NCBI RefSeq assembly: GCF_018588585.1
Contig: NZ_JAEUFG010000001.1
Span: 1 to 64,000, forward strand
DNA: 64,000 nt
From: Bacillus sp. SM2101
Lineage (GTDB): Bacteria > Bacillota > Bacilli > Bacillales > SM2101
Reading direction: 5' to 3'
A program made the position numbers and the translations under genes. Positions 17,306 to 33,678 of this stretch are shown one piece after another. A model generated the notes under the pieces. That model saw nothing but the letters and a program-made list of their open reading frames with translations, made no database searches and had not been told where the DNA came from. Positions within the stretch are counted from its first letter, which is position 1, and each line of letters starts with the position of its first letter.

Positions 17306-18796
17306 TTATCTCATTAAGGCATAGTAAGCATTAACTAAACCTTGTCCATAGGATTCATCATGCCCATTTTTACCTAAATCTTCAGCTGATTTTTGTAAAT
17401 GCAGTTTTACCTTTTTCGGTGTAATATCATCGTTTGTGGCATAAATAAGTGCCGCTACTGCTGATACTTTTGGAGCAGCCATGGATGTACCTACTTGCCA
17501 AGAGTATGAAGGGCCGATATAACTATAGTCAACAATTACACCATCGGCATCGTATTCATAAGATACATCCGGTACTGAACTAAGATTAAACTCGCCCTCA
17601 AATAAACGATTAGCGATATATTCGTCAAAGATTCCTGCATTTAAATATTCCATATACAATTCATAATTTCCACCAGGTGCTGCAACATCAACAAACCCAT
17701 TTCCGTAATTAGAGTAAAGAGCTAATTCATCAAAAGGACCTGTTGCTGATACCGACACTACGTTTGGAATACTCGCTGGAGCATAAAAGCTAGCACCTAT
17801 AAATTCATACCCATCTGGACCATATTTTATATTTGCGAGTTCTGTAACTTCTTTATGATTTGATGCATTTATACCATCATTTCCTGCAGAGGTCACAACT
17901 AAAGCTCCTTTTTTCTCTGCATATTTCATCGCCCTAGAATATGCTACAAATTCAGCAACATCATCACCTAGTTTTGTTCTCTCACCAGTTTCAGGATCAG
18001 TGAAGTACACTTGCCCTTTAGCCATGATCCCCCCTAAGCTCATGTTAATTACATCAACTCCATCATTGGCAGCGGCAATAATTGCTTCTACAATCCAAGT
18101 GTCATGAGCTCCGCCTTCAGCTGCGAATACACGATATGAACGGAAGCCTACATTCGGAGCAACACCTAAAATTTCGCCGTTCCCAGCGATTGTTCCAGCA
18201 ACGTGCGTACCATGTCCGTTACGGTCTTGAATATCGTATAAATCACCCGTTTCGGACTTATCTACACCAGTGAATCCTCCAGCAGGTACAAAGTTTTTAG
18301 AACCTGGCAACAAGTTCTCTATAACATCAGGATGATTGACATCTATCCCAGAGTCTATAATACCTACGACAACATCATGATTTCCAGTGTTAATATCATA
18401 GCTAGCACCATCGTTTGTCACCCTTTTTATGTCCCATTGTAAATCATATAAGGAAGCATTATTTACATCAATTGATGTATCTTCTATATCGATTGAATGT
18501 AAATCAGGTGCATTTACGACTAACGAAGGGTTTGCAGCTGAGATGTCAGCGTGTTTTATTGCTTCCTTAGCAAAATCTGTAGGAGCTTTGACCTGAATGA
18601 CACCAATCTCCGGTATGGATTTAACTATTGTACCACCTAGCTCCTCAACGATTGAAGAGACATCATCTGGTAGTTGTTCTTTCTTAAAAACAATCGTATA
18701 AGAGATGCTTTCTTCTGATTTCGTTGAAGCAGACGTAGGTAGCGTCACACCTACTATTAGTAATGCAGTAAATAACAAACTTATAAATTTTTTCAT
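17306..18796 (-). CDS. Secreted subtilisin-like serine protease (S8 family)
   Basis: 496 residues. A Sec signal peptide (residues 1-24) is followed by an inhibitor-I9-like propeptide to about residue 95, then the S8 catalytic domain. Catalytic Asp148 lies in GIIDSGID and His198 in GHGTHVAGTIAG. The oxyanion Asn lies in SAGNDG, and the Ser near residue 441 in GTSMAAPK. It is therefore a complete, probably active extracellular endoprotease. The domain has an insert of about 50 residues between the oxyanion and Ser motifs. AGGGAGG precedes the ATG. No immunity or bacteriocin genes lie beside it, so a nutritional or processing role cannot be decided. Confidence 0.92.
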   Translation of the reverse strand: MKKFISLLFTALLIVGVTLPTSASTKSEESISYTIVFKKEQLPDDVSSIVEELGGTIVKSIPEIGVIQVKAPTDFAKEAIKHADISAANPSLVVNAPDLHSIDIEDTSIDVNNASLYDLQWDIKRVTNDGASYDINTGNHDVVVGIIDSGIDVNHPDVIENLLPGSKNFVPAGGFTGVDKSETGDLYDIQDRNGHGTHVAGTIAGNGEILGVAPNVGFRSYRVFAAEGGAHDTWIVEAIIAAANDGVDVINMSLGGIMAKGQVYFTDPETGERTKLGDDVAEFVAYSRAMKYAEKKGALVVTSAGNDGINASNHKEVTELANIKYGPDGYEFIGASFYAPASIPNVVSVSATGPFDELALYSNYGNGFVDVAAPGGNYELYMEYLNAGIFDEYIANRLFEGEFNLSSVPDVSYEYDADGVIVDYSYIGPSYSWQVGTSMAAPKVSAVAALIYATNDDITPKKVKLHLQKSAEDLGKNGHDESYGQGLVNAYYALMR

Positions 18797-18944: not shown

Positions 18945-19905
18945 TATAAATATTGTCAATAACGCTCAGGGCTTCTTTTCTTCTTAAGAGACTATAAGAT
19001 CATATAATACATTTCATTTACTAAAATCTTGATAATAATAAATACTAAGTCTCAAAAAGAACCTTACTAATCCTTGTTTTCGGATCAATTGTTGCTTTTC
19101 GTAATACCAACAACACACGAATCTTAATAACGCTCGGGGTATCTTTTCTTCTTTACAGACTATAAAATCATATAATACATTTCATTTACTAAAATCTTGA
19201 TAATAATAAATACTAAGTCTTGAAAAGAACCTAACTAATCCTTGTTTTCGGATCAATTGTTGCTTTTCGTAATATGAAGTAAACTCGAAAAATTTCAAAC
19301 TTTCGGGGTTATTTTTCTTCTGTAAAACGATGACTAATATATAAAACCATTTTTCATGGATATAGTTTGGTAACAATAACACAAAGTGTAAGAAAAGAAC
19401 CTTACTAATGCTTGTTTCCGCATTATTTCTTACTTTTCGTAATACCAACAACACACGAATCTTAATAACGCTCGGGGTATCTTTTCTTCTTTAGAGACTA
19501 TAAAATCATATAATACATTTCATTTACTAAAATCTTGATAGTAATAAATACAAAGTAAGAAAAGAACCTTACTAATGCTTGTTTCCGCATTATTTCTTGC
19601 TTTTCGTAATACCAACAACACACGAATCTTAATAACGCTCGGGGTATCTTTTCTTCTTTAGAGACTATAAAATCATATAATACATTTCATTTACTAAAAT
19701 CTTGATAGTAATAAATACAAAGTAAGAAAAGAACCTTACTAATGCTTGTTTCCTCATTACTTCTTGCTTTTCGTAATACCAACAACACACGAATCTTAAT
19801 AACGCTAGGGGTATCTTTTCTTCTTTAGAGACTATAAAATCATATAATACATTTTATTTACTAAAATCTTGATAGTAATAAATACAAAGTAAGAAAAGAA
19901 CCTTA
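18945..19905. repeat. Tandem array of the dispersed element, about six units, period 167-169 bp
   Basis: ACCAACAACACACGAATCTT starts at 19106, 19444, 19611 and 19778; the last three are exactly 167 bp apart, and the first gap is two 169-bp periods containing a diverged unit. A partial, more diverged unit begins near 18945. Each unit carries the family hallmark TTTTCGTAATA and AAAAGAACCTTACTAATGCT. No open frame is conserved across the units. The array lies between the protease gene's promoter and the ABC exporter terminator, and the rest of 18797-19939 holds nothing else I recognise. Confidence 0.9.
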
Positions 19906-19938
19906 CAAAAAAACAAACCACCTTTTCGGTGGTTTGTT
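19906..19938 (-). terminator. Terminator of the ABC exporter operon
   Basis: On the minus strand AACAAACCACC, loop GAAAA, GGTGGTTTGTT followed by TTTTTTG. Confidence 0.88.
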
Positions 19939-19939
19939 A

Positions 19940-21760
19940 CTATCCTACTTCAAGCATTTTAAATTGTGCTTCAACCAACTTATAGTACTCTCCATGATGT
20001 TCCATCAACTGTTCATGTGTTCCATCTTCAATAATTTTACCTTGTTCAAGGACAAATATATGATCAGCATCTCTAATCGTGGATAATCTATGGGCTATAA
20101 TGATTGCAGTTCGACCATGTAATAGTTCTTTTAGAGCCTGTTGGATTTTCACTTCTGTTTCTGTATCTATACTTGCTGTTGCTTCGTCAAGTATTAATAT
20201 TTTTGGGTCAGCAAGCAATGCTCTTGCAAAAGATAATAGTTGTCTCTCTCCGACAGATAAGACATTGCCTCTTTCCTCTACTTCTGTCTCGTAGCCGTTA
20301 GCTAGTTTTTCAATAAAATCATGTGCACCAACGGCTTTTGCTGCTTCAATAATCTCATCTTCTGTTGCATCAGGTCTTCCAAAACGAATATTATCCATAA
20401 TTGAACCTGAAAATATAAATGTATCTTGTAGAACTACACTAATTTGTGATCTAACACTGTCCAATAACAGATCTTTTATGTTATAACCATCTATTATTAC
20501 TTCTCCACTTGTAGCATCATAGTTTCTACCTATTAAATTTGCAATCGTAGTTTTACCTGACCCAGTATGCCCAACTAGGGCAACAGTTTGACCTTGTTTA
20601 ATTGATAATGAAACTTTGTCAAGTGCTGTTCTCTTGTCGTCATATGAAAAAGTCACATCACGAAAATCAATATCACCTTTCATATTTGGCAGTGGATTTG
20701 CATCTATTTTGTTTGAAACGAGTGGCTTCTCATCTAAAAATTCAAAAATCCTTTCACTAGATGCCATACCCATTAATAATTGATTGTAAACTTGGCCTAA
20801 TCTTGAAATAGGTTCCCAAAACATACCTAAGTAAAAGGCGAACATAACAAACTCCCCGACGCTCAAGCTTTGACCTGTAATTAAAATTGATCCATACCAA
20901 ATTAAGATCGCTGTACCAATCGCATTAGACATTTCAACAAATGGTCTAAAAAGAGCGTTCTTTTTTGTTGCATCTTTCCATGAAAGATAGGACTCAGTGT
21001 TTATACCATCAAAAAAAGTAATATTTTCAGGCTCTTGTGTATATGCCTGCGTCACACGAATCCCTTGAATACTTTCATTTAAGTGTGAATTCATTTTCGA
21101 CTGCTTCATCCGCACATTTTGCCATGAACGTCGTATATTTTTACGTAAGCTTGTCGATATGATAAACATAATTGGTAAAATGACCATGATGGCAATCGTT
21201 AATGATGGACTATTTGAGAATAAAATAACAACAATACCTACTAAAATAATTAAGTCCATTAATAAATTAATGACACCATTTGTAAACAATTCCTGTAATG
21301 AATTAATATCGTTCATGATCCTAACTAATATTGAACCCGCTGATCGTTGATCAAAAAACTTGTGTGACAACCTTTGAACATGGGTAAATAGATGTTTACG
21401 TAGATCATAAATAATATTTTGACCAAGTAAATTCATCCAGCGAATACGCAACATATTTGCTACATACGAGACCGTATATAAAACAGCGATAATGATAACC
21501 AGTTTAATCAATAAGTCTGTATCCTTATATTTCACTGCTTGGTCTAGCGTGTAGATTCCTATTAAGATCGGAATAATGAGACGTACAGCTGTAGTTATAA
21601 TAACTGTCAGGATCGCTAACGGTAAATATGATTTAACATATGGTTTCATGTAACTAAGCAATCGAACCATTTGATTCCAATTGAATGGTTTATCGATAGC
21701 TTGATCTGTGGAATAGTGAAATCTCTCTTTTACTAACTCATTCAGTTTTTCTTTTTTCAT
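19940..21760 (-). CDS. ABC exporter half-transporter (YfiC-like)
   Basis: 606 residues: an N-terminal six-helix type I exporter membrane domain (residues about 40-330) fused to an ATPase domain. The Walker A is GHTGSGKTT. The signature reads LSVGERQLLSFARALL, degenerate from LSGGQ. The Walker B is ILILDEATASID, and the switch His lies in IAHRLS. It pairs with the gene upstream, whose stop is 12 bases away, as a heterodimeric exporter of the YfiB/YfiC or YknU/YknV kind. Substrate is unknown. The ATG at 21760 is chosen because AAGGTGG is seven bases upstream. Confidence 0.88.
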   Translation of the reverse strand: MKKEKLNELVKERFHYSTDQAIDKPFNWNQMVRLLSYMKPYVKSYLPLAILTVIITTAVRLIIPILIGIYTLDQAVKYKDTDLLIKLVIIIAVLYTVSYVANMLRIRWMNLLGQNIIYDLRKHLFTHVQRLSHKFFDQRSAGSILVRIMNDINSLQELFTNGVINLLMDLIILVGIVVILFSNSPSLTIAIMVILPIMFIISTSLRKNIRRSWQNVRMKQSKMNSHLNESIQGIRVTQAYTQEPENITFFDGINTESYLSWKDATKKNALFRPFVEMSNAIGTAILIWYGSILITGQSLSVGEFVMFAFYLGMFWEPISRLGQVYNQLLMGMASSERIFEFLDEKPLVSNKIDANPLPNMKGDIDFRDVTFSYDDKRTALDKVSLSIKQGQTVALVGHTGSGKTTIANLIGRNYDATSGEVIIDGYNIKDLLLDSVRSQISVVLQDTFIFSGSIMDNIRFGRPDATEDEIIEAAKAVGAHDFIEKLANGYETEVEERGNVLSVGERQLLSFARALLADPKILILDEATASIDTETEVKIQQALKELLHGRTAIIIAHRLSTIRDADHIFVLEQGKIIEDGTHEQLMEHHGEYYKLVEAQFKMLEVG

Positions 21761-21772
21761 GTTCACCCCACC

Positions 21773-32212: not shown

Positions 32213-32250
32213 AACAAACAAGGTGGAGAGTCTACTCCACCTTGTTTGTT
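32213..32250. terminator. Perfect 16-bp stem bidirectional terminator
   Basis: AACAAACAAGGTGGAG and CTCCACCTTGTTTGTT with a 6-base loop. The last codons of the DUF3993-like gene form the right arm. It serves that gene and the convergent glutaredoxin gene. Confidence 0.85.
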
Positions 32251-32756
32251 CTTTCAATTTCGCTAATTCGATACGGTTTACTCTCGCTACTTTCAATCTC
32301 CGCAATTTTCCATTCACCTTCTACCTTGCTAAGTGTGACAATTTCATAATGGTCAGGACTTGTAAATAAGATGTTATTTTCTTCTAAAAAATATTCATAA
32401 ATATATATTTGCTGCAATTGTATGTCGTATATTACTACTGTTTGATCTGTATACGAAAAGAATGGAATGTAATAACGTGCAATATCGGTTCCAAGAGTTA
32501 TGTAACCATCTTCTTCTTGAACAACATTCTCACTAATAAACTTATTCATAAATTCATCATTAAAATACGGTGAGAGTAATTCAGTGATTTCTTCATGTGT
32601 ACGATAATCTTCACTTAAGGAGACTTGTGTGTTAAAGGCATCTTGTAGATGATTTATTATGTTTTCCTTAGAGGGGAGTGTATATAATTGCGTATCTTCT
32701 ACAGAACAGTATAACAAGGCGATAGACAGCAACAGTTGGGTGAAGTAATTGACCAA
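32232..32756 (-). CDS. Exported DUF3993-like protein
   Basis: 174 residues with an N-terminal hydrophobic signal (FTQLLLSIALLYCSVE) and an extracytoplasmic domain. Features are QVSLSEDYRTHEEITELLSPYF, ITLGTDIARYYIPFFSY and a closing WKIAEIESSESKP. I associate these with DUF3993 of Bacillus (from memory, moderate certainty); function unknown. A Cys at the end of the signal might be lipidated, but the lipobox is poor. The TTG at 32756 has AAAGGAG six bases before it. Its 3' end forms part of a terminator stem. Confidence 0.65.
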   Translation of the reverse strand: MVNYFTQLLLSIALLYCSVEDTQLYTLPSKENIINHLQDAFNTQVSLSEDYRTHEEITELLSPYFNDEFMNKFISENVVQEEDGYITLGTDIARYYIPFFSYTDQTVVIYDIQLQQIYIYEYFLEENNILFTSPDHYEIVTLSKVEGEWKIAEIESSESKPYRISEIERTNKVE

Positions 32757-32918
32757 ATAATTCTCCTTTCTTAACTAGATTTTATAGTTAATATCATTGT
32801 ATCAACAAATATGACTTAATTTAGCATAAATCGTTCGTAAATATCCATAATATTTTGACATTTTTCTCTACACTAGTGTTGTTTTTTTCTACATAAACTA
32901 TAGTGGTGCACACAAAAA

Positions 32919-32955
32919 CACCCTATTCTTGAAAACCTTATTAAGAATAGGGGTT
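32919..32955 (-). terminator. Terminator downstream of the 43-bp repeat array
   Basis: CCCTATTCTT at 32921-32930 pairs with AAGAATAGGG at 32943-32952; on the minus strand GTGTTTTTGTG follows. Transcripts of the small membrane protein gene would thus carry the whole repeat array as a 3' untranslated region. Confidence 0.75.
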
Positions 32956-32965
32956 AATAGAAGAC

Positions 32966-33310
32966 TTGGATTGGTTACCAATTTGTGTTTACAACTAAAT
33001 AATTCAAATTGGATTGGTTACCAATTTGTGTTTACAACTAAATAACTCAAATTGGATTGGCTACCAATTTGTGTTTACAACTAAATAACTCAAATTGGCT
33101 TGGCTGACCAATTTGTGTTTACAACTAAATAACTCAAATTGGCTTGGTTACCAATTTGTGTTTACAACTAAATAATTCAAATTGGATTGGTTACCAATTT
33201 GTGTTTACAACTAAATAACTCAAATTGGCTTGGTTACCAATTTATGTTAACAACAAAATAACTCAAATTGGATTGGCTACCAATTTGAGTTAACAGCTAA
33301 ATAAATCATA
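32966..33310. repeat. Minisatellite: eight copies of a 43-bp unit
   Basis: Units start at 32966, 33009, 33052, 33095 (44 bp), 33139, 33182, 33225 and 33268. The consensus starts TTGGATTGGTTACCAATTTG and continues TGTTTACAACTAAATAACTCAAA. Each unit contains a palindrome (ATTGG T TACCAAT) and nested AAATTGG/CCAATTT arms. The last unit overlaps the final codons of the small membrane protein gene. There are no unique spacers. Confidence 0.95.
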
Positions 33311-33516
33311 TAGGCAACAACCAATCCAAGTGCTATTAAATATGCAATAAAAATAGGATTTCTCATAACTGGGTGATCTTGGACCTTTTCATTTAATTCC
33401 GGGTCATACTCATCTTGTTGCAATTTTAATGCCCTTCCTAACCTGTAGGTATTGATTAGACCGATCGTTAATATAAGGATCGAAATAATCATCAGTATAA
33501 ATGTTAAATTATTCAC
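33277..33516 (-). CDS. Small membrane protein with repeat-fused 3' end
   Basis: 79 residues, two transmembrane helices (about residues 4-23 and 50-71) joined by a charged cytoplasmic-type loop (LKLQQDEYDPELNEKVQDHP). I do not recognise a family. The GTG at 33516 is chosen because AAGGTGG is seven bases upstream. The last seven codons (AVNSNW plus stop) lie in the final unit of the 43-bp array, and the other units encode variants of the same tail in the same relative frame. The array therefore looks like amplification of this gene's 3' end. Confidence 0.7.
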   Translation of the reverse strand: MNNLTFILMIISILILTIGLINTYRLGRALKLQQDEYDPELNEKVQDHPVMRNPIFIAYLIALGLVVAYMIYLAVNSNW

Positions 33517-33678
33517 TGCATCACCACCTTCACACATCCTTTTTTTACTTTCTCACAAATAAGTTATCTATATTCAGACGTATTTTTTATGGTGATATTT
33601 ACTAAATAAAACTAGGGATATACCAAAGAAATTATTCGGTATATCCCTTATATTTACATCTATTTTGTTATTTTTTTC

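Follow-up and report, generated by a model that had tools for sequence, protein, structure and literature searches.

A probable lineage-private minisatellite derived from the 3′ end of a small membrane-protein gene in Bacillus sp. SM2101

How does a tandem repeat come to lie across the stop codon of a gene, and does it matter to the gene that it is there? The question is raised by a locus in Bacillus sp. SM2101, where, within a window of 64,000 nucleotides (positions 1 to 64,000 of contig NZ_JAEUFG010000001.1, assembly GCF_018588585.1), the gene of a 79-residue membrane protein runs into an array of eight 43-bp units. A preliminary description of the window had viewed this array as a serial duplication of the gene's end whose units could fold as hairpins and whose slippage could shift the C-terminus of the protein. 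Our analysis makes it likely that the array is a locus-specific, lineage-private minisatellite, or variable-number tandem repeat (VNTR), in the 3′ untranslated region (UTR) of the small membrane-protein gene, and we infer that it is probably near neutral.

Tandem Repeats Finder (TRF) reports 8.0 copies with a period of 43 and a match of 92% (score 572, positions 32966-33308), which is far beyond chance. The units, lettered in transcript order (Table 1), are all 43 bp long save unit E, which has 44 bp, and CCAAGTCTTCTATTAA comes between unit H and the terminator. Unit A is the gene's own end: its sequence, CCTATATGATTTATTTAGCTGTTAACTCAAATTGGTAGCCAAT, codes for YMIYLAVNSNW and continues with TAG and five bases, so the stop codon (33279-33277) and the last codons do fall inside the final unit, as had been proposed. 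The extent first given for the array, 32966-33516, contains the eight copies but is too long, as the repeats stop at 33308-33314 and 33516 belongs to the gene's start codon. In form the array is a minisatellite, which is defined by head-to-tail repeats of about 10-100 bp in at least three copies.

To whom else does the array belong? Our comparison set comprised 397 genomes of the order, among which a single sister species (G001) is the sole congener and also the sole other member of the family; each of the two species is represented by one genome. There the same array lies in the same place, in about four units versus eight; the orthologue of the small protein is 97% identical and the flanks are about 92-96% identical. 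Copy number thus differs between related genomes at an orthologous place, as in a VNTR, and the earlier suggestion that it can change is borne out. A search for the array across the 397 genomes found it in the two congeners alone, apart from two matches of 27-35 bases, and a search of plasmids and phages returned no match. In its own genome (5.2 Mb, a draft of 144 contigs) the array sequence occurs at one place only. Constant copy number together with the same array at unrelated genes, the outcome named beforehand as contrary to the duplication view, was therefore not what we found.

The small protein itself is far more widespread, with orthologues in 177 of the 397 genomes. We compared 33 distant loci, namely the 28 best-scoring from other families and five named Bacillaceae loci (Cytobacillus, Bacillus sp. 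J37, two from Metabacillus, and Litchfieldia). TRF, run on all 33, found no array over the gene end in any of them, and neither did direct reading of the 28. A C-terminus of NSNW-stop or similar is nonetheless common to many of these orthologues. Because several that lack an array end in ALNSNW-stop, the C-terminus is older than the array, which was made from it. The gene copy and the sister-type unit are identical at 39 of 43 positions, which together with the shared C-terminus upholds the serial duplication of the gene's end. These comparisons support an origin of the repeats from the gene end, within this lineage, with changes of copy number since.

The differences between copies suggest how this may have happened. 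Three of the four positions that separate the gene copy from the sister-type unit lie in the left arm; with these changes the inverted repeat, which in the gene copy is imperfect (10 of 13 pairs), becomes perfect (CCAATTTGAGTTA / TAACTCAAATTGG). The chance that three random left-arm changes would all perfect the palindrome is about 1e-4, although this test was framed after the pattern had been seen and assumes independent changes, so that it is suggestive only. In a common ancestor of the two species, we propose, a segment with the last ~11 codons, the stop codon and a few bases after it gave rise to tandem copies in the space that separates the stop codon from the terminator. The gene end would already have been an imperfect inverted repeat, and the three perfecting changes in the copies may have been hairpin-templated (quasipalindrome) replication errors. 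Template switching that perfects hairpin arms is on record, and such errors can yield compensatory-looking pairs without selection (PMC8794818). Slippage or unequal recombination could then have brought the array to about 4 and 8 units. Finally, GTGTTTAC is common to six near-identical distal units in Bacillus sp. SM2101 and, because it is absent from the sister, the spread of these units most likely postdates the split between the two species.

Would growth or loss of units alter the protein? Nearly every unit re-encodes VNxNW-stop, so slippage should have little power over the C-terminus. We simulated this by joining the gene copy to each other unit at 35 positions. The protein was unchanged in all 245 duplications, and deletions kept a protein of 79 amino acids ending in NW in 210 of 245 joins; the remaining 35 involved the 44-bp unit E in every case and gave 84 amino acids. 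The notion that slippage shifts the C-terminus thus fails for additions and for most deletions. With an identical tail and stop recurring from unit to unit, the length of the array has little effect on the protein, and the array is probably tolerated for this reason.

The remaining question is whether the array acts in the RNA or the DNA. The small-gene transcript is predicted to carry it, because a terminator-like hairpin (about 32911-32955, reading CCCCTATTCTT...AAGAATAGGG-TGTTTTTG) lies past the array, which agrees with the earlier placement of the units between stop codon and terminator. Each unit has inverted-repeat arms able to fold, and the strongest hairpin is the one that spans the stop codon, although only four pairs of its stem are G-C. 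The array could therefore be a functional 3′ UTR element, in which serial hairpins, some with T-rich stretches, would serve as back-up terminators or as protection from 3′ exonucleases in a copy-number-dependent manner. Consistent with this, a terminator pattern scan finds matches on the minus strand within the array, the best of them across the stop codon with a U-rich tail, and this first hairpin has the same predicted energy in both species (Table 1). The matches in several other units are weaker, with only 3-4 GC pairs and the T run set back except in the first. The 431-nt region also folds 7 standard deviations better than shuffles, but any tandem palindrome outfolds its shuffles, so the score is not independent evidence of function. 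Within units, the stems reach -8 to -9 kcal/mol and are broken by mismatches, versus about -12 in the sister; an A-A mismatch is present in all seven non-coding units of this species and the outer pairs are lost in most. Paired cells amount to 85.3% versus 84.7% in shuffles, with 91 of 500 shuffles as good (a comparison of few sequences and low power), and compensatory changes, with one pair doubly changed, do not exceed background. An Rfam scan of the whole window gave no match at or above the gathering score. Moreover, a terminator is already present past the array, orthologues do without any array, and terminating ribosomes would cover the 5′ arm of the stop-spanning hairpin. Of the proposal that each unit forms a hairpin, then, the capacity to fold stands, and selection for pairing is not supported; a function of the hairpins is possible but likewise unsupported. 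On balance we regard a functional UTR element as unlikely. We give still less credence to the bolder version, in which the gene's 3′ end has multiplied into a ladder of hairpins that preserves itself and, through its number of copies, adjusts termination or mRNA stability while leaving the protein untouched.

The repeated CAAATTGG/CCAATTTG arms, as CCAAT inverted repeats, could instead be clustered DNA-binding sites through which the promoter of the downstream DUF3993 gene is regulated; this gene is on the same strand and starts about 210 bp from the array. Such regulation seems very improbable to us, since the array is missing from orthologous loci where both genes also adjoin, a terminator stands between array and promoter, and the unit changes in the sister species fall in the arms. 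Some interspersed repeats are palindromic units that overlap a stop codon, and a dispersed mobile repeat, similar to the mycobacterial interspersed repetitive units (MIRU) or to repetitive extragenic palindromes (REP), might have provided the end of the gene by inserting at its stop codon. This account is already contradicted and hardly credible: the own genome holds no second copy, the 397 genomes offer only the two short matches and plasmids and phages none, and the gene's C-terminus is ancestral. Membership of a MIRU/REP class calls for dispersal, whereas the unit was found at a single locus of the draft genome.

Several observations weigh against a near-neutral minisatellite. The array is present in two genomes only, so that its rates and its neutrality rest on one comparison, and copy numbers taken from draft assemblies could be off. 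Neither species has a mismatch in the stop-spanning 13-bp hairpin, and a paired change (G-C to A-T) is seen in one sister unit, which might point to constraint. In addition, stepwise slippage is indistinguishable from unequal recombination here.

As a minisatellite, the array resembles the bacterial intergenic VNTR loci used in multiple-locus VNTR analysis (MLVA), with imperfect head-to-tail units of tens of bases at one locus and copy number that differs between relatives, here between species. Unlike in those loci, the seed is identifiable: it is the 3′ end of the neighboring gene, stop codon included. The nearest published parallel that we found is the rnc-fpg1 region (ETR-F / VNTR3239) of Mycobacterium tuberculosis, where lineage-private repeats of variable copy number follow a stop codon in a region that is only a few bases long in relatives, and where the next gene was expressed modestly more strongly when the array was longer (PMC2734929). 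The array described here differs in that its repeats extend over the stop codon and a terminator stands between them and the next gene. MIRUs are also tens of bases long, can be tandem and vary in copy number, but are scattered over 41 places. The arms perfected by changes that all run in the pairing direction recall quasipalindrome correction by template switching (PMC8794818), inferred here from one locus and combined with tandem duplication. A literature search of partial coverage gave no direct precedent for arrays that overlap a stop codon. The locus is a clear case of minisatellite birth in bacteria: the ancestral state is visible in the orthologues that lack the array, the seed in the gene end, and two subsequent stages in the arrays of about 4 and 8 units, and it appears that the copies became perfect palindromes. 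It also illustrates why a gene end can put up with such an array, since the last codons and the stop are the same in every unit. The biology is otherwise ordinary, and the locus should be useful mainly as a typing marker for the genus.

Table 1. Features of the array and of its surroundings (positions in the window)
Feature	Position	Strand	Remarks
Small membrane protein gene	33277..33516	-	79 aa; GTG start, TAG stop; no Pfam match
Tandem array, eight units	32966..33314	-	Transcript sense; from TRF and unit listing
Unit A, gene-end copy	33272-33314	-	Last 11 codons, stop codon and 5 nt; presumed seed of the array
Unit B	33229-33271	-	
Unit C	33186-33228	-	
Unit D	33143-33185	-	
Unit E	33099-33142	-	44 bp
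Unit F	33056-33098	-	
Unit G	33013-33055	-	
Unit H	32970-33012	-	
13-bp perfect hairpin across stop codon	33259..33292	-	Followed by TTTTGTTGTT; predicted -16.4 kcal/mol in both species; terminator-like
Probable intrinsic terminator of small gene	32911..32955	-	Hairpin with T run just past the array; kept in sister species
DUF3993 family gene, next downstream	32232..32756	-	Neighbor of the small gene in most orthologous loci
Terminator-like hairpin of upstream SDR gene	33614..33648	-	Pattern scan

The GTG start of the small gene is preceded by AAGGTGGTG. Searches of its protein against Pfam and NCBIfam gave nothing above threshold; the one weak match, which we disregarded, had E 0.041 and 14 bits where the cut-off is 45. 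Because the upstream SDR gene has a terminator-like hairpin of its own, a separate promoter for the small gene is probable in 33517-33613. Among the 28 loci from other families, most have a terminator-like hairpin no more than some tens of bases past the stop codon. DUF3993 is downstream in most distant loci, and glutaredoxin and metallo-hydrolase genes are often nearby. Upstream of DUF3993, the segment 32757-32900 contains TACGAACG and TTGATACAAT; loci of other families (e.g. L012 and L023) also have these sequences downstream of the small gene, and this suggests a conserved promoter region.

Such arrays are uncommon but not unique in this genome. A TRF census (period at least 20, at least 3 copies) of the first 400 kb of the window's contig and of 400 kb of the sister gave five separate array regions versus three. 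A second array in the window (18958-19906, about 5.7 copies of 167 bp) lies past the terminator of an ABC-transporter gene (19940-21766, minus strand) and before a subtilase gene (17306-18796, minus strand); with about 3 copies at the orthologous place, the sister differs in copy number there too. One distant orthologue of the small gene has an array of other sequence on the gene's 5′ side (L020, 1837-2070, 52 bp x 4.5), which we take to be unrelated. Outside the window, the same contig (C1) carries two arrays of ~125-bp units related in sequence (251777-252670 and 336425-337060; GCGGAAGCGC, AAGCACTGGAG), which are perhaps tandem forms of a dispersed repeat.
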